A DNA stretch of 64,000 nt from Xestospongia bergquistia (taxonomy: Eukaryota; Porifera; Demospongiae; Haplosclerida; Petrosiidae): positions 126,501 through 190,500 of the forward strand of contig OZ014411.1 of assembly GCA_963965975.1 (NCBI GenBank), in the 5' to 3' direction. The notes under the pieces were generated by a model, which saw only the letters and a program-made list of their open reading frames with translations, was not told the origin of the DNA and made no database searches. Both the position numbers and the translations under genes were made by a program. Below, piece by piece: positions 4,691 to 48,500 of this stretch. Numbering within the stretch: the stretch's first letter is position 1; each line of letters starts with the position of its first letter.

Positions 4691-4766
4691 CAAATGTTTT
4701 AACAAATGGAGGTAAGTGTGTTTTATAGTTATTACTACAGTTATACATATAAATGTCTATGATTAG

Positions 4767-5813: not shown

Positions 5814-6614
5814 GTATACTTATATATAGTACGAAAATGAAGCAATACATTGTAATAATGCAGTATTATTTTTATAACCAGCTGAAAATTATTCATTATT
5901 GATGAAACAAGAGTGTCTGTGGCTTTTAGAGTTTTGATTAACCTATCAGTGTACAAGTCATATTGCTTGTTTTTCAGATAGTAACAAAGTGTTAGAACTA
6001 CTTTGCATGTACGAGATAAGTCTGGTCTCTCAATAAGACAAGTATCTTTACCATAATATATATGTAGGTTGTGCATATATCCAGATTTACTGTCATAAGC
6101 TTTTATACCCCATGGGTTAAGTTTTCCTTTAAAGTATTCCCTGACCTCTAAAGGTGATTACTGCTTCATCAACAGCTACTTGTTTATCTGGTGTGTAATT
6201 ACTTTTTATGATGGGTAATAACAAATTGATGAATGCTTGATTCTTGCTTTGTCTGGGTCTTGCTTACTAGAAGCACCAACTTTCAGTGAGTTCATTTATA
6301 ATATTATTATATAATTTGTCATCTGTTATTTATTTTTATATGTAGACTATATCAAGGAAATTCTTAAAGAAGCCATTGAATTAGCCAGGGCAAGTGAAAG
6401 GCAGAGGATATGAAAGGTAAAACATGGAATGTTGATGGGAAATTAATAATAATAATAATCATAACAGTAGTGAAACTGATATTAACACAGAGAATCCCAG
6501 TGCATGTAATCCTGAAATCATTAACAGTGAAATAGAATGAAGATGATAAACACAAACTGATATTTCCAAGCTTTAATTTAGAATTAACAGTGGGTGCTTT
6601 TAAAGACAAACCAC
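5814..6614. other. Non-genic, possibly more decayed exons
   Basis: A short open stretch at about 6346-6413 (DYIKEILKEAIELARASERQRI) follows a splice-acceptor-like TATGTAG and ends at a GTAAAA donor, so it could be another remnant exon. Nothing else is recognisable. Confidence 0.3.
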
Positions 6615-14308: not shown

Positions 14309-14407
14309 CTTGTCTTGAACATCCACTTGAACACCATGGTCTAGTAATACTTGTACTACTTTATCATGACCATTGGAACATGCTAAGTGCAATGGAGTTA
14401 TGCCATT
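14309..14407 (-). CDS. Orphan ankyrin-repeat exon, minus strand
   Basis: Read on the minus strand, an acceptor ..TTATTTAG precedes 99 nt that code one full ankyrin repeat (NGITPLHLACSNGHDKVV, then VLLDHGVQVDVQDK), and GTCAGT follows as donor. Exon length, phase (0/0) and flanking intron sequence are the same as in the plus-strand cassettes from 18.5 kb on. No further ankyrin exon was found on the minus strand on either side. It may be an inverted duplicate left at the array border, or one exon of a divergent gene that extends beyond what I can recognise. Nothing in the repeat itself is broken. Confidence 0.7.
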
Positions 14408-18490: not shown

Positions 18491-18589
18491 GATGGCTATA
18501 CTCCATTGTTCTTAGCATGTTGCAAAGGTCATGATAAAGTAGTACAATTATTACTGGACCATGGTGTTCAAGGGAATGTTTCAATAATG
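18491..18589 (+). CDS. Ankyrin cassette exon 1 (type I)
   Basis: Acceptor TGTTGTTTAG, 99 nt, donor GTCAGT. Codes one repeat beginning DGYTPLFLACCKGHDKVV. The last six residues (..GNVSIM) depart from the usual ..VDVPDK, so the loop to the next repeat is unusual. It is the first plus-strand ankyrin exon I can find. Confidence 0.75.
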
Positions 18590-21500
18590 GTCAGTGACAT
18601 ATCATGTATTCATGTTAAGTTATGTAAAGATTGACATGTACATGTACTGAATATTATTGATGTTTATATAATAGAAGTTAATTTGATCAAGAAAATTGAC
18701 CTCATCTCTGTTTGATTTCATTGTTTAGCTATGGTTATGATCATGATATATCAATATAGTTTTAAATAGCTTTTAATAAATATTATATTAACCCACTGTC
18801 ACTACAAGGAAGCAGCCACGGTTATTACACAAGTTATTGAAATGACTTCTTATCCTTCTCCTCTTATCATAAAAACAAGAAGTTTCCTCTAACATAAAGA
18901 GAATGTTCCTTAGTAGTATTACTTAATAATGCTTTTGCTGTATACATAGTAGTTTGTGCTAGTATGTGACAATAATATTATATGTTGTTTAGGGTGTCGT
19001 AACTCCATTGTCCTTAGCATGTTGCGGAGGTCATGATAAAGTAGTACAAGTATTACTACATCATAGTGTTAAAGTGGATGTTCCAGACAAGGTCAGTGTC
19101 ATATCATGTATTCATGTTAATTTATATAAATATTGACATGTACATGTACTGAATATTATTGTATAATAGAAGTTAGAAAAATTGACCTGATCTCTGTTTG
19201 ATTTCATTGTTTAACCATGGTTATGATCATGATATATCAATACAGTTTATAAATACCTTTTTGTAAATATTATAAATGGTATTGTTTTGTTATAATACAT
19301 AGTAGTTTGTGCTAGTATGTGACAATAACATCATATATTCTTTAGGATGGCATAATCCCATTGTCCTTAGCATGTTTCACTGGTCATGATAAAGTAGTAC
19401 AAGTATTACTAGACCATGGTGTTCAAGTGGATGTTCAGGACAAGGTCAGTGACATATAAGGTATTATTGTTAAGTTATGTGACACAACAGAAGGTAATGC
19501 TACTTTGGCCATGTGAATGAAACAAGTGAATGTAATAATGTGTTTATGAATGTGTTAAGTGTCTCATTATTTAATTTGATTTATCTCTGTCTATATAGGA
19601 TGGTAATACTCCTCTTTATGTTGCATCAAAGGAAGGCTACAGTGAAATTGTGAAAGTATTACTAAAGGCTAATGCTAGAACTGATCGGAAAAACAAAGTA
19701 AATTATCTCATTTACAGTCCTTTATTAAGATAATTATTTTATTTCAATTACTGTAAATATGTTGGTCTTTATTTGTATGCAATTTAAAGCATTTTTAAGC
19801 TAGTTTTTAAATGAGTCAAACAGGTGATTTTTAAACATTTATTTATATACCATTACCTTTCCACAAATTCAATGTTAACTACTTTTTTATCCCTTTAAGC
19901 CCTTCCAAACTACTTGTTAGCAAATTATAACTTGGTCATTTTAAAACTTTTTATAACAGTCAAAGTGTTTACTAATAACAGATGTATTTGAGGCATCATT
20001 GTTGCTTACGCTGTCAATGATTGGTCATAATGTACATGTTACAAATATAATTGTTGATGTGCCTGTATTTCTGATACAATAGTTTATGCCTTATAAGTGT
20101 AGTAATACTATACCTTCATAGTTTACATTTAAATTTTGGGATGTAGTTTAGTATTAGGCAGTGTCATATATACCCTATGATGATGTAACTTTAACATAGT
20201 TTAAAGCTTCTCCATTATCGCTTAATAATTCTTTTGCCATATGGTGTATACTAAAAGTTAGAAGCCACTATATTCACAAACAAATGTGTTAGTATTTTTA
20301 TTAATGTATTAAGAATCTCATACAATGACTTGTCATATTGTCCATACTAACAAGCATTTGTTGATGTATTTGGAATTTAATTTATTTTTTTCACTAATGC
20401 TATCAGTTACCTTTCGATATTTAAGGATAGAATGTGGTCTTATTATTATCTATATTCACATGTAATGTTCTATTATACAGACATGACTTATGATAATGTA
20501 ACTCTTAGAGAGTAGGAATGTTCTCTAGTATTGCTTTGTAATTGTTTTGCTACATAGTTTGTGCTGGTATGTGATAATAATATTATATGTTGTTTAGAAT
20601 GGGATAACTCCATTGTACATAGCATGTTATAAAGGTCATGATAAAGTGGTACAATTATTACTAAACCATCGTGTTCAAGTGGATGTTCCAAACAAAGTCA
20701 GTGACATATGATGTATTCATGTAAGGTTATGTAATACAACGTAAGGTAATAACACTACTTTGGTCACAGAAAAAACAAATGAATGTAATTATATATTTCT
20801 GAATGTGTTAATTGTCTTACAAAATGAGTGGTGATAATGTCCTTACCACAGTGGACTTGTTGATGTGGTTGTATTTGGAATGCAGTTTATATTTGCATTA
20901 ATGCTATGACTTAGTGTTTGACATGTAAAGTTTAGAGGGGATTTAGTATTTAACACAGTTTTAAAGTAATTTTATTTTAAAAGATGATTATACTGACTAT
21001 TAAATTTGATGTTTCTCACATAAGATTTATCTTTGTCTATATAGGATGGTAATACTCCTCTTTATGTTGCATCAAAGGAAGGGTACAGTGAAATTGTGAA
21101 AGTATTACTAAAGACTAATGCTAGAACTAATCTGACAAACAAAGTAAATTATCTCATTTACAGTCCTTTATTAAGATAATTATTTATTTCAATTACTGTA
21201 AATATGTTTGTCTTTATTTGTATGCAATTTAAAGCATTTTTAAGCTGGTTTTTAAATGAGTCAAACAGGTGATTTTTAAACATTTATTTACATACCATTA
21301 CCTTTCCACAAATTCAATGTTAACTACTTTTTTATCCCTTTAAGCCCTTCCAAACTACTTGTTAGCAAATTATAACTTGGTCATTTTAAAACTTTTTATA
21401 ACAGTCAAAGTGTTTACTAATAACAGATGTATTTGAGGCATCATTGTTGCTTACGCTGTCAATGATTGGTCATAATGTACATGTTACAAATATAATTGTT

Positions 21501-24500
21501 GATGTGCCTGTATTTCTGATACAATAGTTTATGCCTTATAAGTGTAGTAATACTATACCTTCATAGTTTACATTTAAATTTTGGGATGTAGTTTAGTATT
21601 AGGCAGTGTCATATATACCCTATGATGATGTAACTTTAACATAGTTTAAAGCTTCTCCATTATCGCTTAATAATTCTTTTGCCATATGGTGTATACTAAA
21701 GTTATGTATCTTGTTTAGGATAACAAGACTCCATTGTACATAGCATGCTACAAAGGTCATGATAAAGTAGTACAAGTATTACTAGTCCATGGTGCTCAAG
21801 TGGATGTTCAAGAAAATGTTAGTGACATAGAATATATTGATGTTAAGTTATGTAACACAATAGAAATCAAAGCAGCTACTATATTCACAAACAAATGTGT
21901 TAGTATTTTTATTAATGTATTAAGAATCTCATACAATGACTTGTCATATTGTCCATACTAACAAGCATTTGTTGATGTATTTGGAATTTAATTTATTTTT
22001 TTCACTAATGCTATCAGTTACCTTTCGATATTTAAGGATAGAATGTGGTCTTATTATTATCTATATTCACATGTAATGTTCTATTATACAGACATGACTT
22101 ATGATAATGTAACTCTTAGAGAGTAGGAATGTTCTCTAGTATTGCTTTGTAATTGTTTTGCTACATAGTTTGTGCTGGTATGTGATAATAATATTATATG
22201 TTGTTTAGAATGGGATAACTCCATTGTACATAGCATGTTATAAAGGTCATGATAAAGTGGTACAATTATTACTAAACCATCGTGTTCAAGTGGATGTTCC
22301 AAACAAAGTCAGTGACATATGATGTATTCATGTAAGGTTATGTAATACAACGTAAGGTAATAACACTACTTTGGTCACAGAAAAAACAAATGAATGTAAT
22401 TATATATTTCTGAATGTGTTAATTGTCTTACAAAATGAGTGGTGATAATGTCCTTACCACAGTGGACTTGTTGATGTGGTTGTATTTGGAATGCAGTTTA
22501 TATTTGCATTAATGCTATGACTTAGTGTTTGACATGTAAAGTTTAGAGGGGATTTAGTATTTAACACAGTTTTAAAGTAATTTTATTTTAAAAGATGATT
22601 ATACTGACTATTAAATTTGATGTTTCTCACATAAGATTTATCTCTGTCTATATATAGGATGGTAATACTCCTCTTTATGTTGCATCAAAGGAAGGGTACA
22701 GTGAAATTGTGAAAGTATTACTAAAGGCTAATGCTAGAACTAATCTGACAAACAAAGTAAGTCGTCTCATATGCAATTGTACTGGTCCTTTATTTAAAAA
22801 AATATTTTATTTCAATTACTGTGAATAAGTTGGTGTTTATTTGTATGCAATTTGAAATGTTTTAAAGCTGGTATTAAAATGAATGAAGCAGGTGTTTTTA
22901 AACATTTATTTATATACCATTACCTTTCCACAAATTCAATGTTAACTGCTCATGTTATCTCTTTTAGCCCTTCCAAACTACTTGTTAGCAAATTATAACT
23001 TGTCATTTTAAAGGTTTTTATAAGTCAAAGTGTTTACTAATAACAGATGTATTTGAGGCATCATTATTGCTAACTCAGTCAATGACTTGTCATAATGTAC
23101 ATACTACAAATATACTTGTTGATGTACTTGCATTTCTGATACAACAGTTTATGCCTTATAAGTGTAGTAATGCTATTATGTCATACTTTACATTAAAGTC
23201 TTAAGGTGTAGTTTAGTTTTAAACACTGTTATACGTAATGTATGATTATAATCTATGATAATGTAACTTTAACAGGGTATGAATGTTCTCTAGTACAACT
23301 TAGAAATCCTTTTGCCATATAGTTAATATTAAAAAGTGATTATTATATTATATATTTTTTAGTATGATAAGTCTCCATTGTGCATAGCATGTACAAAAGT
23401 CATGATAAAGTAATACAGCTATTACTAGACCATGGTGTTCAAGTGTATGTTCCAGACAATGTCAATGACATATGATTATTATATTAAGTTATGTAACACA
23501 ACAAAAAGTAGTAATGCTACTTTGGTCACAAAAAGAAACAAATGAATGTAATGATGTGTTCTGAATGTGTTATTTGAATATGAGAGGTCATGATGTCATT
23601 ACCAAAATGCCTTAGTTGATGTGGTTGTATTTGGAATGCAGTTTATATTTGCATCAATGCTATGACTTAGTGTTTGACATGTAAAGTTTAGTTAAGCACC
23701 TTATCAAAAAACTACAGTACACATATACATGTAATATATCCACTTAAAATGATAGGAAGAATGTACTTTTACTATACAAGTATTTACTACAACCTGTACA
23801 TGTATATTTACATGTATTTCAGTTTTCCTTTGATATGTATTATGTTATTATTAATTTAGTTTTGTTTTATAATATATCTATCATACTACATGTGTATGTT
23901 GTTATTGTTTAGATGTAACATATACATGATTATAACACTATTTAATGTTTCTCACATGACATTTATCTTTTTACGCATATAGGATGGTGACACTCCTCTC
24001 TATGCTGCATCACAGGTTGGCAATAGTGAAATTGTGGAAAAATTACTAAAGGCTAAAGCTAGTACTGATAACTTAAACCTGGTAAGTTTCTTTGTTAAGG
24101 TAATTATCATATGATTACATGACTTAGAGCATAATAATGTCAGAGCTTTTTGACTTGGCAATTAAAACAGCATGTGTTCTTTTAACATGGTTAACAAATA
24201 TAAGAATTGTTCGGTTAATTTCTTTAAGTGACTTTATTGTCAGATGTTCACAATTTGGGATGAGTTATTGTTATGGAGTTGTATTGTTGTTCATGATATT
24301 CAGTTAAAACTGATAGTGCCACTACAATGCATTGTAGATACCTTTAGAGGAATTCCCCTACGAACCAAGGATCTCCAGTAAGTCTATACTTTACAAGGTC
24401 AAAATTAACATGAAGTGTACTTGTCTTCTGAAATAAAACCTTTTAAATTCAGGAAGGCAAGACTTTTCAAGATTTTTTATCAAATCACTGACTGACAACA

Positions 24501-27500
24501 TTTTAGTTTCACAAATCCTGCCTTCCCTTCTACTCAGGTTGTGAATACAAGACCTTTCTCTAATAGAGTGTGAATGTTCCCTAGCAATATCACTTAGTGA
24601 TGCTTTTCTGTACACATACCAGTTTAATTTGTGTTAATATGTGACAATATTATTATATGTTGTTTAGGATTTCAAGACTCCATTATGCATAGCATGTTAC
24701 AGAGGTCATGATAAAGTAGTAAAAATATTACTACAACATGGTGTTCGAGTGGATGTTCTAGACGAGGTCAGTCTACATCCTCACAGCAAATGCTTTTATA
24801 GGAAGACTATGGCCACATCTTCGTAATCACATTCTAATGGCAGGTCAAAGTCCTTGGGGTCTAATGGTAGACAATAGGGTTATAAAAAATGATTTATCCT
24901 CCAAAAAATTATTTTTTAGTTAGTTTATTGTTTAAGTTTTTTGTTGCCGATTCTGATGAACTTTATACATTTTGTTAGGTAGACTGGAAATTCTTAAACG
25001 TGAAATACCATATTTCCTTGAATAGTCACCTCTCTTGCACTATATCCAATAAAATTGACATTGCTCTCTAATAAACAACACATATAATTATATTTATTAT
25101 TAGGTGATAATTATTAACTTGAACTGAAACAAACAGAGAAACAACAGCTAAATTGAATAATACATATATGTTCAGCAAGACAAGTTATTGAACTGACAAC
25201 TCTGCCTTTTCCTTCTCCTCATGTTATGAATACAAGAACTTTCTCTAATAAAGTGTGAATGTTCCCTAGTAATATCACTTAGCAATGCTTTATACACATA
25301 GCAGTTTATGTTAATATGTGGCAATAATATTATATGTTGTTTAGGATAGCATGACTCCATTATACATAGCATGTCACAGAAGTCTTCATAATGTATTGCA
25401 AATATTAGTTACAAATATTAAGTTATATAACACATATGTTGTTTAGGATGGCAAGATTCTATTATACATAGCATGTTCCAATGGTCATTATAAAGTAGTA
25501 CAAATATTATTAAAACATGGTATTCAAGTGGATTTTCCAAACAAGGTCAGTGACACATGATGTATTCATGTTAACTTACTTAAATATTGATATTTATGTT
25601 TTACAATGCAATTTAGTTTGACCAATTAGAAACTTGACCTGATCTCTGTTTGTTGTCATTGTTCATCTACAATTATAATCATGACATATTAATACATCTT
25701 TTAAATACCTTTTCATAATTATTATTTAGGATATTATATATAGACATAGCAGTTATTCATTATGTAGGTATTAAAGGATCTTTTATTTCAATGCACTTTT
25801 GTTTTCTAAAGTGCACATGAAATAAATATTGAGAAATCAGCAATTTTGTCAAAATACAAACTGAGATTTATTACAGTTTTTTTAACAAAATATCTGATGA
25901 AAAAGTTATTGCTGTGACAAAGTCTTGCTTATTCTTCTCCTCATATCATGAAAAGAGGAACTTTCCTCTAACAGAGAGTAATTGTTTCCTAGCAGTATGA
26001 CTTAATAATTCTTGAATAATACATATATGCCCAGCAAGATAAGTTATTGAACTGACAACTCTGCCTTTTCCTTCTCCTTGTGTTATGAATGCAAGAACTT
26101 TCTCTAAAAAAGTGTGAACATTCCCTAATAATATCACTTAGTAGTTTGTGTTAATAAGTGACAAAAATATTATATGTTGTTTAGGATGGCAAGACTCTTT
26201 TGCACAGAGCATGTTCCTATGGTCATGATAAAGTAGCACAAGTATTACTGAACCATCCTGTTGAAGTAGATGTTCATGACAAGGTTAGTGACATATCACG
26301 TATTTATGTTAAGTTATATAACACAACATAAGTTAATAAAGCTACTTTGGTCACAAAAGAAATTGACTACATATCGTTATTGTTTAGCTATATTGGCAAT
26401 CATGGTATATCAATGCACCACACAACTTATTAAGTGATGAGATTTATTATTACTGAGAATTATTATTAGTACTACAATAATATAACACCTACCTTGAAAT
26501 TGCCTTGTCCTTCTCCTCACATTATAAAAACAAGAGTGAATGAAAGTATGACTTATTGATGCTCTTGCTTTATAAACAGTAATAGTTTGTATTAGTATGA
26601 GACAATAATATTATATGTTGTTTAGGATGGCAAGACTCCATTATACATAGCATGTTCCAATGGTCATGATAAAGTAGTACAAGTATTAATAGGCCATAAT
26701 GCTCAAGTGGATGCTCCAGACAAGGTCAGTGACATATTATGTATTCATGTAAAGTTACATAAATATTGATATTGATGTTTTTTACAATGGAAGTTATTTT
26801 GACCAATAATTAGAAATTTGACCTGATTTCTGTTTGTTGTCATTGTTCATCTATAGTTATAATCATGATATGTCAGTACAGTTTTTCCATACCTTTTAGA
26901 ATATTTACAAAAGGTATTATATATAGACATAGCAGTTATTCATTATGTAGGCATTAAAGGATCTTTTATTTCAAAGCACTTTTGTTTTGTAAAGTGCACA
27001 TCAATTATATATTGAGGATTCATCAATTTTATCAGAATACAAACTGTGATATATCACAATCTTTTTTATTAACAAGTGATTGAACTGACAAACTCTGCCT
27101 TATCCTTCTTTCATGTCATGAAAACAAGAACTTTCCTCTAATAGAGAGTCAATATTTCATAGCAGTATGACTTATTAATGCTTTTGCTATATAAATAGTA
27201 GTTTGTACTAGTATGTGACAATAATATTAATATTATATTTTGTTAGGATGGCATAACTCCATTACACATAGCATATGATACAGAGGTCATAATAAAGTAG
27301 TTAAAGCATTACTAGACCATGGAGCTGATGTTACCATGATTACATAACTTAGCTAATGAGTGTGATAATTGATTGGTTCAATTTGATTAAGCAACATTGT
27401 TGACAGACATCACTAAGATAGAAAATGTGGGTGGTATCACAGTTAGATCTTGTGGCAACAATATCAGATGTTCACAATATGGGATGAGTTGTTGTTATAG

Positions 27501-30500
27501 ACTTGTAAAGTTGTTAATGATATCCAGTTAAAACATTAGTGTTGCTACAATGTAATATAGATACCTTGAGAGGAATTTTCCTGCTAACCCATAATCTCTA
27601 GTAAAACTCCTGTCAAATCTATATTGCATTGTCAAATCAATCACATAAAAGATAACAGCTAGAAATTGTGTGTATTTTACACCTTCATTACCAAAAAGAA
27701 TAAAGTGTACATCTTCACAGCAAATGCTTTTGTAGGAAGACTGTGGCCACATCTTTTTAATCACACTTCAAATGCAGGCCAAAGTCCTTGGTGTAAAATA
27801 GTGGAAAACAGGGTTATAAAAATGATATATCCCCTAAAAAATTATTTTTTACTTAGTGTTTTTTTATTTTAAGTTTTTAGTTGTTGATTCTGATGAACTT
27901 TCTACACTTTGTTAGGTAGACTGGAAATTCTTAAACATGAAATATCATTGAATAGTCACCTCTCTTGCACTATATCCAATAAAATTGACACTGCCCTCTA
28001 ATAAACAACACATATAATTATATTTATTATTAGCTGATAATTATTAAATGAACTGAAACAAACAGAGAAACAACAACTAAATTAAATAATACATATATGT
28101 TCAGCAAGACAAGTTATTGAACTGACTACTCTGCCTTTTCCTTCTCCTCATTTTATGAATACAAGAACTTTCTCTAATAAAGTGTGAATGTTCCCTAGTA
28201 ATATCACTTAGTAATGCTTTATACACATAGCAGTTTATGTTAATATGTTGCAATAATATTATATGTTGTTTAGGATAGCAAGACTCCATTATACATAGCA
28301 TGTTCCAATGGTCATTATAAAGTAGTACAAGTATTATTACACTATGGTGCTCAAGTGGATTTTCCAGACAAGGTCAGTGACACATGATGTATTCATGTTA
28401 AATTACATAAACATTGATATTTATGTTTTACAATACAACTTAGTTTGGCCAATTAGAAAATTGATCTGATCTCTGTTCGTTGTCATTGTTCATCTACAAT
28501 TATAATCATGATATATTAATACATCTTTTAAATACCTTTTCATAATTATTATTTAGGATATTATATATAGACATAGCAGTTATTCATTATGTAGGTATTA
28601 AAAGATCTTTTATTTCAACACACTTTTGTTTTCTAAAGTGCACATGAAATAAATTTTGAGATATCAGCAATTTTGTCAAAATACAAACTGAGACTTATCA
28701 CAGTCATTTTTATGAAATAAGTCACTAACAAAATATTTACGTTGTTGTAATGTTGCTGGCACTCTACTCAACCCAAATGGCATGGTGTTAAACTGATACA
28801 GTCTAAACAAAGTGGTGAAGGCTGTCTTGTATCTGTCTTGAGTAGACACAACAACTGGATAGTAACCTCATGTCAGATCTAAAGTGATAATAAACCTGGC
28901 TCTTCATAATCTGTCATCTTTATGGGGCATTAAATAGGCAACTGCCTGAGGTACTGAATTGAAACATCAATAGTCAACACACATCCTCATTGTTACATTT
29001 TTTTCTCGCCAGCACAATGGGGAGTCTTCCATTCACTGGAAGACTTTTCAATAACTCCACCTTCCATCTCTTTAGTTCCTTGGCCACAAATTCTCTGTTG
29101 GCTAAGGTAAGCAATAAGTAGAGAATTTCACTTGGAAAGTAGTTCCTGTCTCAATTTTATACTCAGCAAACCTTCTCTTTCCTAATAGTTTCTGCAAGAC
29201 ACCTGAGAAATTGTTTAGATTGTGTGTCAGTTTCATCCACAGAACACTCACTAATTGCTCTCCTCTCTATAGCTGACTTTTGGGGTCCTCATTTTATTCT
29301 GGGAGGTTCTTCATTAGCATTAGCTTTCACAACTTCTAGTAGATAGTGTCCTTCCAGAGTTTGTTGTGTATGGAAGTTTTTCAACATATTGACATGGAAT
29401 AATCTTCTTAGGTTCCTATTGTCATCGATGTCAATGATGTAGGTCACACAACAAGTTCATCTAAGAATTTTCTATGGTCCTTGCTATTGTGCCAATAACG
29501 TGCTTGTTGACATTGGTAATAATACAAGCAATGAGTCACCTGAAATAAACTTTCACAGTCTAGCTTTTTTATCATACATTTTCTTTTGTCTTTCTTGAAC
29601 CTTTGACAATGATTCCTTTACTACATCTGTCATGTTCTTCCATTTTTCATGTATTGGGAACACATAACTTACAATAGTTATGTCACTGTGTTCAGTAGCC
29701 TTTTGTTTAATATATCAAGTAGACCTCTTAAATCTCTACCATATTATACTAATTCAAATGAGAGAAACCCAGTGGACCTTTGTGGTACTTCTTGATACAC
29801 GAACAGCAAATATGGGATGACAGTCCTTCCTTAATTATTGACTGCCTTTCTTAGCATGCAATTCAATTTTTGATTAAAGCATTCTATCAATCCATCTGTT
29901 TGGGGATGATATGAGCTTGTCCTAATGGCTTGGATGTAAAGCAGCCTGCAGCTAGCACCTGGAATGTAAAGTTGCTTCCCTGGTCTGTGAGTATCTCCTC
30001 AGGTACTGAAACTCAGGCAAATATCTTTATCAACTCTTCTACAATATGCTCAGCATCAATGATATGTAGAGGTACTGCCTCAAAGTATCAAGTAGCATAT
30101 TCACAGATCACAAGTATGTACTTGTTTTCACTTTGAGTCTTTGGTAGTGGACGAACAATACCACTGCTATTCATCTGAACAGTTCAGTGATAGTAGGCAA
30201 AGGAATTAAAGGTGCCTTTTAATCTTTCCTGGTAGTGGCTTTTTGGCAAACCATGCATTGCTGACAGTAGTTCTCTACATCTTTGAATAGACTGGGTAGT
30301 TAACTTCATCTTTTGACTGTAACTTGGTCAGTTTCGTTTATTTTTTCAACTATAATATACTAAATTATTGCAATAGTTAACCTCTTTGATGTAGTAAATG
30401 TTAACATGTTTAATACCTCTAAATTCAGCTCAGTATGTTGCTCATAAGGAAAGTATGATCATCAGGACACATAAAACATAGTTAAGTCATTAAAATATAG

Positions 30501-36500: not shown

Positions 36501-39500
36501 TTTTGGTAAAAATATTATCCAAGACCATATTGTACACATTCTTGTTAAGATTTGATCATAAAAAAAACAAACAATGACAAATTCTAAATTGATGGACATA
36601 AATACAAGTAAAGTATACATGTACATCTGTTTAAACTCATATGTCACAACTTTTTTAGGATGGAAAAACTGCACTCTATGCATCTGCTGAGCAAAACCAC
36701 ACAGATATTGCACTTTTTTTGATTGAGCGTGGTTGTTCTGTCGATGTTAAAGATAATGTGAGTTCATATAGGTTGTAGTACTAGTTAACAAAACCACTTA
36801 CAGTAGTAGTTCATATGTTTACATATCTGTAGTCTAACATGCTAGCCTCTCCTAAGCTGACTTTCAAATCTCTCCTTCTTATCAACAAGCTGATGGACAT
36901 AGGAGTGTAGAGAAGCAAAACTGGCCTACTGGAATAAGTAGAATATAGGATATTAGTTTTGTCTCTAAACTACATAGCAAATTGTAGTTACTCTTGTATT
37001 TTTGCCTTGACTTTATTTTGACAAGAAATGTAGCAAGAATATAGTCTATAGAGTGTATGCAACATATTGTATTTACATGCATACTTTATGCTACATATTA
37101 AAATATATTACATACATATATATTATATCTCATTAATATATGAAATGACATACATGAATCTATACTGTAGTAGCATTATTGATACATAATAAGAAATGAC
37201 TTGTTACACTCTCTTTATATTCTTAGAATGATGACACTGCTTTACACTGGGCAGTCTTCAATAACAATGTTGATCTTATTAAGGCAATCATGGCTCGCAC
37301 TGATCAGATTAATGTTAAAGATAAGGTGAGTATAATAAAACTACAACTATGTCAAAAACCATCTTTTGTCCAAGATAGTATTCTGTCATGGGCAAGTAGC
37401 TTGTCACGTAGTCTTAAGAGTGTTTAAGACATGTCGTTATACATGTATATATACATATACATATTTGTCCACTTTTATCATTTTGTTGTAATGTCTAAAG
37501 TATGATTTGAATGGAGCGAACTCACATATAGTAACTGCTAATATACATGACAACTAAGGAATTTAGATAACTGCTGCTATGAAATATCAAATATGGTGCA
37601 ACTGATCAAGGTTCAAAACTAGTTAAAACTTTCTGAAAGTGGAAAATCATCTTTGAGCAGCACTATAACTTCCTCAACTTCTCAATCTTCTGACTTGGCA
37701 AATACATATACATGCAGTGTTTCTTCCATTAAATTCTTCAGTGTTTATTTCAATCATAGCATTCATGACTGAGAGTTTATTCAAGAAAGGGATTCCTTTA
37801 ACTTGAAAGTTCTCAACCCTTTACTGATACATCACTAACACTTGCAATTGAATAGTAAAATGTGATAATATGTTGGGAAATGCTAACGTGCTTCCAGGCC
37901 TACCAACACCATACATTATTTTGATTAGTTGTTTATTTGAACAAACATGTCTATTTCTGTGAGGTGTTTATTTGTACAACCATACATTTACACTCAAAGT
38001 TTATTCAAAGTATGCTTTTAGTTGAGGAAATAATTATTGTAATCTTTTATAGCACACACTGTTTGAGATATTTACAATCTTTTTCTACAATTTTGGTAAT
38101 TGGAATCTAGTAGACATTTAACAGAATGGCAAAATACTAAATTCTATATGAGTAGAAGCAAATAAAAAATGTGATATAGTACTTTGCCAGAAACTTGTTA
38201 CGCAATAACTTTTAAACCTCTAGTCAATTTCTATGTTTACATGCTGCAATAATATGCTTTGTGATTAATTTTACTGGTTTTTAATTAATTAGAACCAAAG
38301 TAGGCTAAATTTTCACTACATATTTGTATTATGACAGTTAAATTTAGACTGTTCATATCTTGTTTAAATTAGTAATAGAAAGTTGCTGATGATTCAAAGT
38401 TGATAAGGACATTTTGGTACTGTCATGAAAACCTCATGATTTATAAAGAAGCACAGCAAAACAACAGATTGAAATCAACAGATAGCACATTAGCTGTATA
38501 TTTTACTTCATTTGTATTGTCTGTAGCTTGTTTTCTTTGATGGTAAATTCTAGAAAGAAAAATCTTGATAATATTTGATCTAAGATAATCTTCAAAACCT
38601 GACATTTTTATATCAACCTCTAATTCCTCAGTAGACTTAACTTTGGAACATTTAACACCACTTCTTGTTCTTTATGTTATACATAGTCCTGCATAGTTAG
38701 AATATTTCTAGTAGTTGTCAATTCCAACACTTCTGCATTACTATTACGTATGACTAGTCTTATTTCCAGACATCCATTCTTAACGCATAGAAGGGGATCT
38801 AGCATGCTTCAAGTGTTCCCTTGGCATTCCAGTCAGAAAGAGTTTCAGATGACAAATTGAGTTATCACTTTCATGAGATATAATATATATTTAACACTAG
38901 TAAAATGCATTTGCTTGAAACTAAGATGGTAGATATTCCAAGACTGAAGGTGACTGTTTTGAGTGCTACAATTACTGACACAAGTGATTCAGTTTTTTTT
39001 GAGTTTAGAACTAAAGATAAGTCAAGTAGAATTTGTTTAGCAAATTCTATGTGGGAGGACTTTTTAAGTTTGTGTTTCCCAACTACTTTAGAAGGAAAAT
39101 CTCTTTATTTCTGTTCTTCTAAAAATGAATAGCATTACAAATACTGACTACACTCCACCTTTAAGAATAAGGGATATTGTTGATGTTATGTGACAAAATC
39201 TACTTTCATACTTCCTGTAATTCCAACAAAGTGCTCCAATTGTGCTGCATAACTTTTTGTGTTAGTGAGTGGGCCTTTTGGGACAATACTAACCATAATG
39301 ATTGCAAACAAATATTTGCAAATACATTTGGGCTTTAACAATTGTAGCAGTAATTTTGATTTTGAGTGAAGTTTGTTGGTTACATTTTTGTCTATTCTAT
39401 TATCATGAATGACATTAAAAGAAATAAGAAGTATTTTTGTAGTGGGTAGCAGCCTTTTTCAGTGACAAAATGAATGCCCAATAGCTACTGCTAGTGTAAA

Positions 39501-42500
39501 GGATACAAACAGAATAGAACAATAATAAACAAAATATAGTATGATATAGTATGATTAATAAGACAGAGATAAAAATAAGTGATTGATGGTATCTGATCAG
39601 TTTTAGTGTGATAAGTGATAACAAGTGGATGATTATTAAATAAGCATATTGTACTTTTCCTTTGATTAAGATAATTTTTATGTTTCTTCCATTATCTCCT
39701 TGGTGTATTTTGAGTGTTTTAAGCTGTTGTCCAAAAATAAAGGTGTTTATTCAGCATAGGTATTGATTCATTGTTTACATAATGTTATACATGTAGTTGC
39801 TACAACAAGGGGTGTGTGTTTTATTATTATGTTAGAACTATATACATGAGTAGTTTTATGTCAATATGAGAACTGTTATAGTGTAAAAGAATATACTAGA
39901 TTTAACTTGTGTTATTAAAATGTAAAAAAAATTTTCTGACAACAAAAGGCAGTTTTAAGCATGACATGTCTTGAGCATCACACTTTAAAGTAAGGATTGT
40001 CACAATAGATGATAGTAGATATGGTTGTATGTCAATGGCAATGAACTTTACTCCATGTTGTATTTATTGTAAATTCCAGTCTAATTTAGAAGAGTGTAGA
40101 AGATTGTCTGCCATACTCAAGTACTAAACCCTACTCAGATCGTGTCAAATTTAATCACCTGCCCTTTTGTCCTAATCCTCAATGGTTATAAATTCCTTTT
40201 CAGCACAATGTAACATATACCATAATTTTGGGATTTGTTGTTGTAAAATATTTTCATTGTTGCCCTTTACACATGAAGTAGTATGCATGAAATTATTTAA
40301 ACAATGAAAATCATAATGATGAATAATAAAATCTTCAAGAATATTATTATTGTAACAGCTATGTGCAATAGTACAGAACACAAAATCTCAATGCCAACTT
40401 GAGTTATAAGTCAGAAATGTATCATCTTTTTCCAGTAACTCTACAATAGATGCATCCTCCTCTTCATAGGAACAATAAAAATGTCATGCATTCTTAATAA
40501 TTATGTCATATGAGACTTCCATTCTTTTTCATAGCAATAATATGTCTGTCCTTTTTGTTTCTGTTCACTCTTGTTATGCTTTGATACATATAAAATTTTC
40601 TCCTAAGCAAACACCACATCACGGAAATACAATACACGTCAACTTGTAATACAACCACTTTATTTTGACAAGAAGTATGTAATTGTACTATACACATATT
40701 TACTACAACCTATTCATGTACATTTACATGTATACCAGTTTTCCTTTGATATTAAACACACACACATGTATTATGTTATTGTTAATTTAGTTTTGTTTTA
40801 TAATATTTTCTATCATACTACATGTGTATGTTGTTATTGTTTAGATGTAACATATACATGATTGTAACACAATTTAATTTAATGTTTCTCACATGAAATT
40901 AATCTCTGTATATATTCATAGGATGATATTACTCCTCTCTATGTTGCATCATATAAAGGCTACAGTGAAGTTGTACAATTGTTACTAAAGGCTAATGCTA
41001 GTACTGATATAGCAAACAATGTAAGTTGTCTCATGTAAGAAAATTATTATATTTCCTTGATTAAATACCTTGATGTTTATTTAACTCAAAGCATTTTGAC
41101 TTGGGATTTAAACAAAGCAAAGATTTTCAATGTAGCTATCTTACTGTAAAAATTTAGTTGGAAAATTAGTTGGTTGATGTGACCAAGATATGGTTATACA
41201 AGTTGAATATAAGTTAAAGATAATGCTGTTTTCATTCGTCATGTACTATCCAATTAAGTAAATATATCCTGATGTATTATCATATTAATTATATAACAAG
41301 ATATTTTTAAATCAACCAATTAGTGTTTACAGTGTATTAACTCTTACTTGACAAAGTATATCCAAAATGTTACTGTTATTTTTGTCCCTTTAGAGTCTGT
41401 CAGAGTGACTTTAAAGCAAATTACAACTTGTTATTTTAAATTATTTTAAATAGTGAAAGTCTTTAATAATCACAGATGCATTTGATGCACTGGAGCCAAT
41501 TGCTTTTGAGTAATTCATTTCTCTGATAAGCTTGATTTTTGTAATGAGCTATCTTGAGTTTTAATTCACTCTTATTTACTATGCTTTGGGGCATATCAAA
41601 AAATTGATACAACTCTCCAAGTTAAACACCTTAATATGGATATACAGTACCTATGTACATGTAATAAATGCACTTAAATGTTACAAGAAGTATGTAGTTT
41701 AACTATATACATATTTACTACAACCTGTTCATGTATACCTTTTAATCTGGCATTAAAATGAGACATGCAGGCATATCTCAATGTAGACATTATTTGTTAA
41801 CAATACCTGGCTACAAATAGAAATGTTAGTTGTTCTTTTCTAACATTTTTGAGTTACTTTTGTAGCAAAATATAACTATTTAAAAACTTTTTTATGACAA
41901 CCAAGGTGTCTATTAATCAAAGATGCATTTCAAACATGATTGTTGCTTCAAGCAAAGTCTTTTTCTAATTAACTTGCAATGATTGGTCATAATGTATATA
42001 CTACAATGGACTTCTATTCACAATGCAATATTTTAAGTCTATATGTGTAGTATACTATAACTTAATACTTGACATTTAAAATTTATGTGTAACAACAACT
42101 TATTTTACGATGTTGTAACACTTATTACTTATTAGTTATAGTAAGTGTCAGTAGTTATACTGAGTGTCTTGATTATTTAATATTCTAAATTTGGTTGGCT
42201 TGTTAGTGAACAGAACAAAATGTCTTACAGGTAACTATAGTTTCAATAAAATTTTATCCAATAATTTGACTTTTAGATGGATTTATGATGTGTAAATATG
42301 GATTCAGCATTGAGAAACAAACATGTGGTCTGTAAACTCACAGTGAGGGTATTGTACAAAACTAACAATTTCTTGTGCTAGCCACCGTGAATATTGATCC
42401 CTTCTTTCAAACATGTTAAAACTTGTCCTGAGTTTAAGAACCTGACATTTATCATAGTATACAGATCTACCTGTCATACATGTTTTGATCATTATCCACA

Positions 42501-45500
42501 TAAATGTGACAAATGCATGTACTTTATTTATACACATATTTACAACCTGTACATGTACATTTACATGTATACCAGTTTTTCTTTGATATTAAACACGCAC
42601 ACATGTATTATGTTATTATTAATTTAGTTTTGTTTTATAATATTTTCTGTCATACTACATGTGTATGTTGTTATTGTTTAGATGTAACATATACATGATT
42701 GTAACACTATTTATTTTAATGTTTCTTACATGACATTTGTCTTTATATATACATAGAAAAGGGAGACTCCTCTCTATGTTGCATCAAGAAGAGGCCACAG
42801 TAAAATTGTGAAAGCATTACTAAAGGCTAATGCTAACACTGAACTGGCAGATATAGTAAGTTGTTTCATGTTCAATTGTACTTGTCCTTTGATTAAGATA
42901 ATTCTTGTATATCTTCCATTAAACTCTTTGGTGTACATTAACTGTTTTAAGCTGTTGTTAAAACAAGGATGGTGTTTATTCAAGATAGGTATTGATATAT
43001 TAACTCTACCTGACAAAAAAAGACAAACATTAACTGTTTTATTTCACTTCTTTTTGGCCTTTTATAGTCATTTTATAACAAATTTATGACTTGTCATATT
43101 TAATATTTCTAACATAGTGAAAGTGTCAACTAATCACATATCCATATTTGAAGCATTTGAGTCAGTTGCTGCAAGCAAACTCTTTCTCCCAAAAGCTTGA
43201 TTTTTCTTGCTGTAGCTATGATATGTAATCTTTAGTTCTAATCTGGAAGTTCCAGTCTGCTTTGGAAGAGTGTAGAAGACTATCTGCCATACTCAAGTAC
43301 TAAAACCTAAGCACACCTACTCAGACCATGTCAAATTAATCACCTGCCCTTTGGTCCTCATCTTTGGTGGTGGTTATAAATTATTTTTGAGCTTGTTGTA
43401 ATGTATACCATAAGTCTGAGAATTGTTGTCATAAAATATTTTCATTGTTGCTTTTTACCAGTGAAATTTTGTGCACAAAATTATTTAAACACTGAAAAAT
43501 AATGATGATAAATGATTAAAAATGTGAACAATGCTATAATTGTAAGAGCTATTGTGCAATAGTACAGACCACAAAATCTCAATACAAACTTGAGTTTTAA
43601 CTCAGCAGCATATTTCCTTTTTCCAGTAATTCTACAATTGATGTATCCAGATTTATAGTACATGTAGTTATTATAACAAATGGAATGGCTTATTATTATT
43701 ATGGAACTCTACACATGTGTAGTTATATGTCTGTATAAGAACTGGTGTAGTGTAGTAGTACTTAAGTATATATTAGAGTTAACTTGTGACATCAATAAAG
43801 AATATCACTTTAAGCATGGAGTCTCTTTTTTATGAAATAAGAACATGATACTTTTAAAATGAGGAATGTAATAGATGATAGTAGATATGTAATATACATA
43901 AGTAAATAAATATAAACTACACCACTTGTTCCTTAAATGGAGATATGTCCTGTCATCAAACGTATCCAACACTTTTTGTTTTGCCCCTTTGAATATTTTT
44001 ACTGGTTATTCGTATAAATATTTACATGTACATTTCAATGATCAATAGGAAGTGAATGACCTTTTGTCTTTTTATGTACTATATCATAGTATTATATGTA
44101 CTTGTAGTTATTTTTTTAACTATGACACTGTAGCCTCTCTATCAATTTTATAAATATCAGGAGCCTTAAAGAAATTGTGATTTCATGAACTCCTATAAAT
44201 ATATTTCTCGTATACCATATGGAATGCATCCATTCAATATTTAGTGGTTTAATTTGGTAAAGTATATTCTAAAATTATAACGTACACATTGTTAAGATTT
44301 GATCTTAAAAACCAAACAATGACAAATTTTTAAATAGATGCACATAAATACAAGCACAGTGTACGTCTACATCTATTTATTCTCTTTATGTCATATCTTT
44401 ATTAGGATGGAAGGACTGCACTCTATATGGCTGCTGTGAATAACCATACAGATATTGCACTTCTTCTGATTGAGCAGGGCTGTTCTGTTGATGTTAAGGA
44501 TAAAGTGAGTTCATATAGGTTAATCGAAGTCTTGTGTGTTTGCATTAACTTTCTTGGGAAAACAATGTAGGAGGAATATTGATGTCCAAGTCCTGTTTCT
44601 TACCATTTCTAGGAATAGTAACTCTAGTTTCTGATGTCATGTGATGATAATAGCACTGATATCATGAAATTGGAATTGAGTGATTGACACAATACTGGTA
44701 TGCACATTATTTTCTGTCCCAAGAAATTTGATTGAAGAAATTGATATTGATAATGATTTGTTTGTCTGTACGGCAGTGTCAGTAGCAGTGAGCTTATGAG
44801 TCTATATATAATCAGTAGAGAAATATAGTTCTTCTTAATATGAATGTTAGTTTCAGGCTTGTAAATATTAAAAACATCCTCTACTACTGTAATCCCCACT
44901 TGGTTATCTTGTTTATTGAAGAGAACACAATATTTCATAAGTCTCTACAGTGTCATATGTAATATCCTTACTCAACTTTTTAGTTTTAACATAAACCTGC
45001 AGGATAGTTTAGATTTCATATGACAATGAGGTACCCCCTGCAAAAAAATCTAGAGACAACTATACATAGAGAAATATTTATAATGGATTCTGGCACTGTA
45101 ATTGGGTAAGTTGTCTCCCAGGACAATTTACAGATAAGATATGGTCCCCTGGACCATGTATGGCTACTGCACTTTTGGCATAGTAGTTCAAAAAACTATA
45201 TACCTCTGACAAGTAATTTGTTAATGTAGGAAGGGTAGCTTATTTAACCTCCAGCACCTTGTATAAATAAATATAATAGGTGATAGACTTATTACTTCAT
45301 ATGGAATCTATACACAGCTGTCTTCTTTCTATGTATTTTTGTATTATTAAATATTGAGAGTCTTCAGTATATATACAGCATATTGTATTTATATGCATTC
45401 TTTATGCTGCATATTAGGTTGCATTACATATATATTATATCTTGTTAATATGTAAAATGATGTACATGAATCTATTATAGTAGCAATATTGCTACATAAT

Positions 45501-48500
45501 AGGAAATGATTTGTTACACTCTCTTTGTATTCATAGGATGACTACACTGCTCTACACTGTGCAGCCTACTATAACAAAGTTGACCTCATTAGGAAAATTG
45601 TGGAAAAAAATGTTCAAATTGATGTTAAGAATAAGGTCAGTATAATTAAAACTAAAACTGCTTTAAAAAACATTGTACAAGATGGTATTTTCTGACAATG
45701 ACATGCAGTATGTCACACTGTCCTAAGATTGTTTTCAACCATGTGGTTATACATATATGTATCTATATATATATGTATATATACACTTTTCATCATGTTG
45801 TTGTGATGTGTAAAACAAACATTAACTGTTTTATTTCACTTCTTTTTGGCCTTTTATAGTCATTTTATAACAAATTTATGACTTGTTTTCAACCATGTGG
45901 TTATGCATATATGTATGTATATATATATATATATGTATATATACACTTTTCATCATGTTGTTGTGATGTGTAAAGTGTGTTTTGAATGAAATGACATCAC
46001 CTATAGTAATTGCTGATGTACATGGCAACTTAACTGATGAATTTAAAAAACTGCTGCTATGAAAATTTCAAATATGGTATGACCAATCAAGTTTCAAATG
46101 TAGTTAGATATTTCTGAAAACAGAGAATTGTCTTTGAGTAGCACCATAACTTCCTCAACTCCCCAGTCTTCTGACTTTGTAAATATATGTGTATACTGTG
46201 TTTGTTCCATTAAATGCTCCAGTGTTTATTTTAATCACAAGAATTGTGACCATTTGTTTATTCAAAATAGCCATTCCATTATTTTGAAACTACTCATTTT
46301 AATAGTAAAATGTAAATGTGATTACATGTTGGGAATTGCTAGAATGTTCACCATGTGTTTATTCTAATGATGTATTTATTTGTACAAACGTGGTTCTTAC
46401 TTTCAACATTTAGTTATGACAGGTCTTTATTGAAAGGATGTTTTTAGTCAGGTAAATAATTACTGGTTTATGACATTTGCAAAAATTCTTTTGTAAAATT
46501 TGGCCATTGGAGATCAAACAGGTGGTAATCAGAATGGAAATACCTTTAATTGTCTATATGAATGGAATTTAATAAAGGAGACATAGTACTATGGTACAAA
46601 CATGTTACCCAATGACATCTAATATGGGCACCTCTCCAATACAGGTATACCCCTCTTGTCAATTTCCATGTTTACATGCTATAATATTGGTTTCCCTTTT
46701 CTTTGTAATTTACTGCTTTCTGATTAATTATAACTAAAGTAGACTGAACTTTCAGTGCATATTTGTATTATGACAATTGAATTTAGACTGTTTGCACTTA
46801 TTTAAACTAGTAATAAACAGCAGTTGCTATTTCAAAGCTTATAAGGATGCTTTGATACTCCTCAGAGCTTACAAAAATACAAAAAAGCAACAGATTAGAA
46901 TCAACAGTCAGTACAGCAGTTGTATGTTTTGCCTGTATCACACTTAATATTCTTAGATCTAGATAGAAATGTCCCTCATCTTGTCAACTTTAATTTGTTA
47001 TTAATGAGTCTAAGACTGTCTTGTACACCTGATATTTCCTTTTGACCTCTAATTCCTTAGGAAAATGTCATATAGCATAAAGAAATATATTTGCCTGCTA
47101 TTCACCTAAGAGCTTAGAGTAAGTAAATGGAGTTCTTTGTGATAATCATGTCCAATAGCTTTACGTAACATTTAATAATTTTTCCACATAAATGACCACA
47201 GGAGGATGGTAGGTATGTAACCTGGGTAAATCCACAGGTTAGAGTTTAAAGTCTTAGTTTGACAATGGCATATTTTACAACAAGAGAATGAAATCTGAAT
47301 ACATACACTGTCTTTATATAACAAGATGACAGAATGTTCTAGAAGCAATGATCAGAAAAATAAACAAACAACTCTGATAAATAAACAAGTTAGATAAATA
47401 AACAATTTAGAGATACAGTACACACACTACACCATTCCCCCTCTAGTTTTTGTGTCCTCACAAAAATCAGTAGTAAAGTAACAAATTCAATCAGTAATAT
47501 AATTTCCGTAACATACTGGGGGTCAGCGATTACGTTGTGGTCTTTCTGTCCCAATGGATACGTCATCTGATGATGTTGTGTATCCTCCAGCTGATCGAGT
47601 CTCTTCTTTGTTCTCAATGACTTCCACATGTGTTAGTTTTGACACTTGGGTGGCTGGTGGAGAAGTTGGGTTAGGGTAAGCTGTTTCACTTCCTCTCTTT
47701 TGTGGGGCAGGTGTAGGTTGCTTCTTGCTGGCTTTGTTCTGTGGCTCACCGTAGCAGAACTTTAATCTGTTCTTATGCACTACCAATGTCTTTGAAGATC
47801 CAATCAACTGTATCCGGTAGGTCACAGCACCAATCCTGTCAATTATGGCGTAAGGGCCATGCCACAACGAAGACAGTTTCCTTGTTCTTCCCTGCTTCAC
47901 AGCAGGGACATAAAGCCAAACTCTGTCCTCTAGAGTGAGGTTGCTGCCAGCTACTTTCTCGTCATATTTTGAATTTGTTCCTTTGGTGTGCTTTGTTTAG
48001 TTTCCGTCTTACATCATCGTATACTCCTTTTAGTGAACAGTTCACATCTTCTATGAATTCAGGAATTTCTTTCTCCTCTCCTTCTCCTGCTAAGGGAACC
48101 CTGCCTAGCATTATATCTACTGGAAGTTTTGGTGATCGTCCAAAATTAACTCGGTATGGAGAATAACCCGTAGACTCATGGAGGGTGGTTGTATATGCGA
48201 ATAACACCTTGGGGATATGCAGATCCCAATCTTTTTGGTTCTCCTTTACTAACTTGGCTAGCATTGCTTCCAAGGTAGGGTTGAAGTGTTCCACTTGTCC
48301 ATTTCCTTGTAGGTGATATGCTGTGGTTTGTGTACACTCAATTCCTAGACTTCTGCAGTGAGATGAAATGACTTGACTTGTCAAGTTTGCTCCTCAGTTA
48401 CTGTGAAGGCTTGAAGGCATTCCATATTGACACAAATTTCATTAACCAGCACTGTAGCCAAGGTTTCTGTATCTGTTGAATGAAGGGCAAAGACTTCAAC

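Follow-up and report, generated by a model that had tools for sequence, protein, structure and literature searches.

The 64,000-nt stretch of Xestospongia bergquistia DNA analysed here (the window) probably holds a single member of an extensive ankyrin-Roco(-Death-like) gene family in which the signalling part is fixed and the repeats are interchangeable; this degree of confidence applies to the explanation as a whole, comprising the gene family, the turnover of its cassettes, and a proposed role as sensor or scaffold. Twenty-seven exons, whose transcription and splicing are predicted from the sequence, join in frame into 1618 codons with no stops, and all have AG/GT borders. They comprise 22 cassette exons, two more ankyrin exons, and one exon each for the Roc GTPase, the linker, and the Death-like domain, and the resulting array has 25 ankyrin repeats, 24 of them one per exon. 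The 5′ end of the gene, with its first exon and start codon, was not found: the matches listed from a homology search upstream of position 18491 were to a minus-strand cassette with its surroundings, and no first-exon candidate was among them. The window contains no Rfam family at gathering score and no tRNA.

The cassette exons

An earlier note on this DNA described 22 plus-strand exons of exactly 99 nt, each in phase 0 at both ends and coding for one repeat, and this description is borne out: all 22 are open, preceded by AG and followed by GT, and carry one ankyrin repeat each. When AG and GT were required at the borders, the plus strand of the window yielded 51 open phase-0 frames of 99 nt, of which 22, the first at 18491-18589 and the last at 45537-45635, encode an ankyrin repeat. 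A profile built from these same 22 exons, scanned over the plus strand without the AG/GT requirement, recovered all of them with scores of at least 49.6 bits, and no other hit exceeded 33.2 bits. On shifting the borders by −30 to +30 nt, the AG...GT pair was seen in 22/22 cassettes at shift 0 and once in all other shifts together. The cassettes show the 33-residue repeat of the ankyrin family, including the TPL, A, G, and LL residues of its motif; Pfam was run on the repeat within the Roc exon rather than on the 99-nt exons, and PF00023 scored above cut-off there.

Two cassette types had been proposed, but the sequences fall into four. The 12 type I cassettes, all on the plus strand, lie at 18491..18589, 18993..19091, 19346..19444, 20598..20696, 21719..21817, 22209..22307, 24668..24766, 25447..25545, 26185..26283, 26626..26724, 28274..28372, and 30782..30880, and the six of type II at 19599..19697, 21045..21143, 22658..22756, 23983..24081, 40922..41020, and 42757..42855. 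Two are of type III (36659..36757 and 44406..44504) and two of type IV (37227..37325 and 45537..45635), the last being the final cassette ahead of the Roc exon. Two further plus-strand exons, an ankyrin exon of 105 nt (31180..31284) and an ankyrin-like exon of 93 nt (31548..31640), are also in phase 0 at both ends, and each has a homologue in a sister gene.

The array bears marks of copying and of loss. Tandem stretches within it are 98–99% identical: the type II cassette at 21045 lies in a 683-nt stretch that is 98.4% identical to that of the cassette at 19599, and the type I cassette at 20598 encodes the same protein as the one at 22209, at a repeat offset of 1611 nt. Three type I cassettes on the plus strand have decayed: the reading frame is broken at 23363..23460, the 3′ part is gone from the truncated relic at 25345..25407, and the copy at 27247..27332 has a broken frame and no donor. 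At 32594..33349 (plus strand), a copy of the intron sequence flanking a type IV exon lacks the exon itself; the junction, at about 32725/32730, is placed by repeat and BLAST coordinates, as the multiple alignment placed the upstream flank uncleanly. The profile scan also found a solitary cassette on the minus strand at 14309-14407. A 5-kb LTR retroelement occupies the last long intron, before the Roc exon, and together with the decayed cassettes it would also be consistent with a gene that is being lost.

The signalling part

The output part of the gene (Roc, linker, and Death-like exons) lies outside the interval 18491..45635, further along the plus strand. A large exon at 52859..54922 carries the last ankyrin repeat, the Roc GTPase domain, and a long region where COR would be expected. 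It is followed by a 76-nt linker exon running from phase 0 to phase 1 (55020..55095) and a 338-nt Death-like exon running from phase 1 to phase 0 (55257..55594), which together form a symmetrical 0-0 pair. The linker exon has a second copy at 55696..55771, beside which neither self-comparison nor a tblastn scan revealed a second Death-like exon.

A ROC-COR-Death output had been claimed for this gene, and of this the Roc domain stands, whereas COR is unconfirmed and the Death match lies below the Pfam cut-off. PF08477 scores 27.4 bits in the window against a cut-off of 27 and matches all four Roc-exon paralogues (best E 1.4e-8), and the P-loop G-x4-GKS within the Roc exon is invariant in 4/4. 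Among the 11 PDB matches of the GTPase up to E 1, seven are LRRK2 and three are entries named ‘Rab family protein’ (3dpu is so listed), which we take to be bacterial Roco GTPases; these nearest solved relatives range from E 4.1e-5 (LRRK2) to 0.028. NACHT had no match in the four Roc-exon proteins, and nSTAND3 appeared only below threshold (E 0.16); Roc occupies the place that a NACHT/STAND NTPase has in NLR receptors.

PF16095, the COR family, had no match up to E 1 in the four Roc-exon proteins. Alignment of the COR place with two COR-bearing paralogues by profile was co-linear but weak (P 0.0046, probability 7.6%), and a structure of the Roc exon predicted from the single sequence gave a mean pLDDT of 35 and an unusable fold. 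Across the genome, PF16095 has 146 matches (150 scored of 171 candidates), and many of these lie in frames some 700 aa long. Two of these proteins were compared with the window Roc exon and showed no significant blastp similarity to it; PF16095-bearing proteins were therefore taken as another Roco group and not counted as paralogues of the window gene.

Death is the best Pfam family of the 338-nt exon at 16.5 bits, against a curated cut-off of 22.6. In four paralogue copies of the exon, Death is again the best family (12.7–18.1 bits), likewise below 22.6, and the sole match in a PDB profile search is an Ankyrin-3 chain at E 0.63. The exon is called Death-like because its Death matches fall below the cut-off and the PDB match is weak.

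A family of related genes

The type I splice context placed around exactly 99 nt has 61 matches in the genome, compared with none for a reversed-pattern control. Judged by the part of the sequence displayed, 60/61 look like ankyrin cassettes, and the 20 that were translated are all open over 24 codons. At a spacing of 100–129 nt, the same context gives a single match (102 nt), and the reversed control gives six. For 60 of the 61, the first scored Roc exon downstream is on the same strand, at a distance of 6.2–127.3 kb, and these fall at 12 loci; the distances use the 64 Roc exons scored of 319 candidates, so nearer ones were possibly missed. Those 64 genome-wide matches of the Roc exon are free of stops in 62 cases and, self aside, share 48–83% identity with it. 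Three Roc copies (44%, 49%, and 69%) come after one-repeat exons, and the Death-like exon is present in three of four downstream stretches checked, twice in one of them. The modularity that had been claimed is supported: 22/22 cassettes are in phase 0-0, the array can be joined to the Roc and Death-like exons in frame, and at the 12 loci a Roc exon comes after the type I cassettes on the same strand. The window gene belongs to a set of related genes that numbers in the dozens, a setting that the earlier note, made from the window alone, was unable to see.

Splice contexts and the copied unit

Conserved splice contexts had also been reported for the cassettes. Downstream of type II, GTAAR is found in 6/6, but the other contexts quoted are exact only in part: among type I cassettes, TATGTTGTTTAG is exact in 10/12, TTGTTTAG in 11/12, and GTCAGTGACATA in 6/12, while CTATATAG is exact in 2/6 of type II. 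In comparisons of type I cassettes, flank identity falls from about 0.85 beside the exon to 0.42–0.51 beyond 105 nt. The copied unit is the exon plus flank, splice contexts included. Conservation of the contexts was considered as a sign of function and rejected, since the contexts mark the border of what is copied and are therefore not independent evidence of function.

Variation and likely exchange between cassettes

Site variation was measured on a motif-selected set from the window and other loci, made up of 46 type I exons (44 distinct) and 18 of type II (18 distinct); relics and diverged cassettes were excluded, as were exons that are not 99 nt long. At six presumed ligand-facing positions, entropy was 1.66 versus 0.75 bits in type I (P 0.0004) and 1.95 versus 0.72 bits in type II. 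The corresponding pN/pS was 1.71 for type II (bootstrap 1.26–3.18) and 1.37 for type I (0.88–2.28), the latter not clearly above 1; for the type I cassettes of the window alone, the ratio was 1.14 at presumed surface positions versus 1.10 elsewhere. Variability is concentrated likewise in the few type III and IV exons, with pN/pS of 1.11 and 0.60. Presumed surface positions vary in ankyrin repeats generally. Surface-position entropy was rejected as proof of selection, as the pattern recurs in types III and IV.

The history of the cassettes was followed in 45 type I and 17 type II exons with 130 nt of flank, the set also used for the flank comparison. Distances in the two halves of type I exons correlate at −0.03 where a shared tree would give 0.44 (0/200 simulations were as low), whereas type II halves are correlated as one tree predicts (0.57 versus 0.58). 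The upstream flank and 3′ half of type I retain some linkage (Mantel P 0.007). The unlinked histories of type I cassette parts suggest exchange between cassettes.

Sister genes

The broad exon order of the window gene resembles that of two sister genes, which themselves differ by one type II and one type I cassette. Exon turnover, which had been put forward as a way of varying the receptor, is supported between paralogues because the sisters differ in their cassettes, relics are present, and type I cassettes combine parts whose histories are unlinked.

Between the two sisters, the Roc exon is constrained and the ankyrin exons change at the neutral rate. The Roc exon has 31 nonsynonymous and 53 synonymous changes (w 0.15), compared with 30 and 7 in the ankyrin exons, counted over nine exon pairs with two further pairings of duplicated cassettes excluded; the contrast is significant (Fisher P 9e-6), and the ankyrin exons fit neutrality (P 0.84). 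The Roc exon of the window has a dN/dS of 0.25 against a sister gene, and within the window the type III pair has a w of 0.37 and the type IV pair 0.47. The dS of the sister Roc exon (0.125) exceeds intron divergence (0.030–0.045); we have no explanation for this, and it is counted against the preferred explanation.

Proposed mechanism and alternative readings

In the preferred reading, unequal recombination and local duplication would multiply and remove cassettes, conversion between them would mix their sequences, and the frame would tolerate such gain and loss because every module is symmetrical. The protein would be an intracellular sensor or scaffold, its ankyrin array binding ligands through a surface particular to each gene, with Roc as a putative GTP-dependent switch and the Death-like domain recruiting a downstream partner. 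Genomically fixed differences among genes and alleles, rather than splice choice, are expected to account for most of the diversity. A bolder version, tentative and rather improbable in our judgement, would be a germline recognition repertoire: dozens of Roco genes with 99-nt cassettes copied, deleted, and converted within and between loci, individuals differing in their sets, and thus an innate counterpart of VLR and NLR systems with Roc in place of NACHT.

A doubtful but serious possibility is that the array has a structural role, as a spacer or scaffold to which the exact repeats matter little; its symmetrical exons would merely tolerate gain and loss, with no recognition surface under selection. 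The sister ankyrin exons change as they would without selection, decayed cassettes persist among intact ones, and types III and IV share the position pattern while window type I cassettes have no surface excess. Neutral churn accords poorly, however, with a length held at exactly 99 nt in 61 matches against the one longer match, and with presumed buried positions that vary little where surface positions vary much, the type II surface ratio lying above 1 over its whole bootstrap range. That the window copy is a pseudogene, its array and output no longer in one mRNA, is unlikely: three decayed cassettes, a missing exon, the retroelement ahead of the Roc exon, the stray second linker, and the unfound start would all suit a dying locus, but all 27 model exons are open with AG/GT borders, the Roc exon remains constrained against a sister gene, and the exon order is broadly like that of two sisters.

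Less likely again is a Dscam-like receptor, in which one locus would yield many proteins by including different cassettes. The frame survives any choice of modules, because all 22 cassettes are symmetrical and the linker and Death-like exons are symmetrical as a pair; yet duplication history explains this symmetry equally well, constitutive inclusion fits equally, and the many gene copies already supply diversity. Misassembly or in silico duplication of repeated cassettes is very improbable. Tandem stretches of 98–99% identity are indeed places where assemblers err, but window type I and type II cassettes differ by about 20% on average, and type I cassettes recur ahead of a Roc exon at 12 loci.

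Relation to known systems

DAPK1 and other ankyrin-Roco proteins combine ankyrin repeats, a Roc GTPase, and a Death-like C terminus, and the window gene has the same order. It differs from them in its 25-repeat array with copy turnover and in the dozens of Roc exon copies, and no kinase was seen in the ten window frames scanned; the kinase domain of DAPK is N-terminal, and the 5′ end of the window gene was not found. LRRK2, which carries leucine-rich repeats and a kinase, and bacterial Roco proteins have the Roc domain in common with the window gene (PDB 6xaf, 2zej, and 3dpu across the two groups); the leucine-rich repeats and kinase of LRRK2 were not seen in the window gene, nor was COR detected. 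Vertebrate ankyrins and NLRP genes have one repeat unit per exon with the same phase at both ends, and such symmetrical exons are common to the window gene; the vertebrate arrays are old and of fairly stable repeat number, whereas the window gene shows 98–99% identical copies, losses, and signs of exchange.

In the sponge Amphimedon, Death-TRADD-N proteins with ankyrin repeats are described as a lineage-specific expansion with a proposed role in invader recognition (PMC8195603). Both groups join apoptosis-type domains to ankyrin repeats in a lineage-specific expansion, but the Amphimedon proteins have the Death-like domain at the N terminus with TRADD-N (PMC8195603), whereas in the window gene Roc is central and the Death-like domain C-terminal. 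The term roco occurs in PMC8195603 once, in a reference title. No cassette-exon ankyrin-Roco family was described in the titles and abstract openings found, a search that left subscription literature mostly outside.

Were the array a recognition surface, the sponge would possess dozens of GTPase-switched sensors in which the binding part could be remodelled with the frame kept, and would offer a testable case for intracellular recognition that varies in animals without adaptive immunity. With its many naturally occurring fusions of ankyrin repeats to Roc domains, the family is also material for studying how the Roco switch is triggered.

Cassette exons in the window

The 22 plus-strand exons of 99 nt that the earlier note placed at 18491–45635, each a phase 0-0 cassette coding one ankyrin repeat, are real. 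Among 51 open phase-0 frames of 99 nt bordered by AG and GT on the plus strand, 22 code an ankyrin repeat. A scan free of the border requirement, its profile built from these same 22 exons, scores them at 49.6 bits or more and everything else on that strand at 33.2 bits or less. In a shift test from −30 to +30, the AG/GT pair stands at the true borders in 22 of 22 exons, against one occurrence in all other shifts.

By sequence, the cassettes form four types, I to IV (n = 12, 6, 2, and 2). The splice contexts given earlier as conserved hold in part: for type I, the acceptor-side and donor-side strings are exact in only 10 and 6 of 12 cassettes; for type II, the donor GTAAR is found in all six but the acceptor string in two. 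Identity between type I cassettes is around 0.84 within the exon and drops with distance to 0.42–0.51 past 105 nt, and therefore, the splice contexts represent the edges of a copied unit. The array also holds decayed and truncated cassettes; in one type IV copy the exon itself is apparently gone. Upstream of the array, a solitary type I cassette with an open frame lies on the opposite strand (14309–14407, minus).

The predicted gene and its output domains

The array comprises 16 type I and II cassettes, a 105-nt exon, and a 93-nt exon, followed by types III, IV, II, II, III, and IV. On its 3′ side, a 2064-nt exon (52859–54922) encodes the last ankyrin repeat, a Roc domain, and an extended C-terminal region; a 76-nt linker exon (55020–55095) and a 338-nt Death-like exon (55257–55594) complete the model. 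The predicted gene has 27 exons, each bordered by AG/GT, and 4854 nt (1618 codons) free of stops. A search for homologous 5′ exons upstream of the array did not locate the gene start among the matches listed. The linker runs from phase 0 to 1 and the Death-like exon from 1 to 0, and as a pair they are symmetrical. Another copy of the linker lies downstream in the window, and both exons are doubled in a paralogue on contig C4.

The intron preceding the Roc exon houses an opposite-strand LTR retroelement whose LTRs are 92% alike. This element (47215–52261, minus) is of the Ty3/gypsy type and carries a reverse transcriptase (RVT_1, E 2.2e-39). DDE transposase-like fragments occur at 3836–4108 (plus; below the Pfam cut-off) and 5810–6157 (minus; above it).

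Of the ROC-COR-Death output proposed earlier, the Roc component stands, albeit barely above the Pfam cut-off in the window and more strongly in paralogues. Its nearest solved structures are LRRK2 and entries that probably represent bacterial Roco proteins; a structure model of the Roc exon from the single sequence was unusable. COR has no Pfam match in the Roc-exon proteins of four members, and the profile match of this region is co-linear but weak. Death is the best family in five copies of the Death-like exon, yet below cut-off. Around 34 kb 3′ of the window, another Death-like frame (4418–4717, minus, of fetched locus L015) scores 19.1 bits, where the Death family requires 22.6, and shares 22% identity with the window's Death-like exon.

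A gene family across the genome

Genome searches that scored 40 of 220 candidates for a 229-nt cassette unit and 64 of 319 for the Roc exon yield at least 48 and at least 64 matches, respectively; 62 of the 64 scored Roc matches lack stops. The pattern TTGTTTAG, 99 nt, GTCAGTGACA has 61 exact matches, versus none for a reversed control. Judged on their first 72 nt, 60 of the 61 are ankyrin cassettes, and all 20 that were translated are open over that part. At spacings of 100–129 nt, the same pattern matches once (102 nt) and the reversed control six times. Contig C1 carries 47 of the 60 cassettes, within 2 Mb of either end, and C4 the other 13. Among the 64 Roc exons listed, the first downstream of each of the 60 cassettes is on the same strand, 6.2–127.3 kb away, at 12 loci. 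One-repeat ankyrin exons also precede three Roc copies with 44, 49, and 69% identity, and the Death-like exon is present in three of four fetched downstream stretches, each of about 2 kb.

At C1:686566–813870, just one listed Roc exon follows a run of fifteen exact-pattern type I cassettes spread over 121 kb; this may be one giant gene, or several with outputs undetected.

Turnover and probable exchange of cassettes

Symmetrical cassettes would allow an array to be rebuilt without damage to the frame, and the data show that such rebuilding occurs between paralogues. Two neighbouring sister genes on C1 (L040/L041) have introns 3.0–4.5% apart (six stretches), and ahead of the Roc exon their type III and IV exons are arranged identically. 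Upstream, BLAST blocks reveal an additional type II cassette in one and an additional type I cassette in the other, in a comparison that omits 500 nt of the first gene and the 5′-most type I cassette of one, which lies beyond the other's fetched sequence. These differences support the earlier proposal that exons can be lost or copied without frame change, as far as paralogues are concerned.

Cassette parts also appear to have separate histories. In type I, distance matrices of the 5′ and 3′ exon halves, and of exon and flanks, are nearly unrelated. Simulations on one tree, itself derived from these data, predict a mean r of 0.44 to 0.63, and for five of the six part pairs r lies below every one of the 200 simulated values. 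The sixth (upstream flank and 3′ half) falls at 2.5% of simulations and retains residual linkage (Mantel P 0.007). Of the six type II pairs, four fall at or below 4% of simulations, but the exon halves, as well as the 3′ half and downstream flank, match the single-tree expectation. The probable cause of this unlinking is exchange between cassettes; errors in the alignment or the tree, or uneven selection, could also produce it. In a further Roc paralogue (L037), one ankyrin exon occurs in three copies at about 1043, 2283, and 3528 (plus), spaced by about 1240 nt, which points to duplication of cassettes other than type I.

Tests for selection on the cassettes

Comparison of the sister genes gives 31 N and 53 S changes in the Roc exon (w 0.15), versus 30 N and 7 S in nine pooled ankyrin exon pairs (P 9e-6); the ankyrin exons alone fit neutral expectation (P 0.84). 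No slowing is seen between the sisters for type III and IV exons (15 N, 2 S), although the window's own type III and IV pairs give w of 0.37 and 0.47. The sisters' Roc exon has a synonymous divergence of 0.125, some three to four times the divergence of their introns, perhaps through conversion from a more distant copy.

Six cassette positions, the ones randomised in designed ankyrin proteins, were compared with the rest. Variation there is 1.66 versus 0.75 bits in type I (44 exons, P 0.0004) and 1.95 versus 0.72 bits in type II (18 exons, 0 of 20000 permutations). The corresponding pN/pS is 1.37 (0.88–2.28) and 1.71 (1.26–3.18), with bootstrap ranges that are too narrow because shared descent and exchange link the cassettes to one another. 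Variation is likewise concentrated at these positions in types III (five exons, ratio 1.11) and IV (six exons, ratio 0.60). When only the type I exons of the window are taken, the ratio is 1.14 at these positions versus 1.10 elsewhere. The surface-position signal is therefore only suggestive of selection for diversity.

Possible role

By analogy with known Roco proteins and known Death proteins, the array may bind ligand, binding may switch Roc, and the Death-like domain may then signal. One paper connects the sponge response to bacterial LPS with ankyrin-repeat proteins and GTPases (PMC8242945), and another describes Death-TRADD-N proteins as greatly expanded in a sponge, often with ankyrin repeats (PMC8195603). 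Because of these reports, an immune role for the family is a reasonable suggestion.

Other ankyrin and Roco groups

A separate ankyrin group on C14 and C3 (including loci L001–L008) has its repeats in long uninterrupted open frames, many of which lie in clusters and the longest of which has 2968 codons. PF16095 (COR-A) has at least 146 matches in the genome, many in frames of about 700 amino acids and clustered on C10, C11, C12, and C6; judged by these matches, this is a putative second Roco expansion. Two of its members showed no significant similarity to the window's Roc exon. Roc-like matches, mostly partial, also stand in tandem rows at C5:2506674–2523984 and C9:3041820–3063319.
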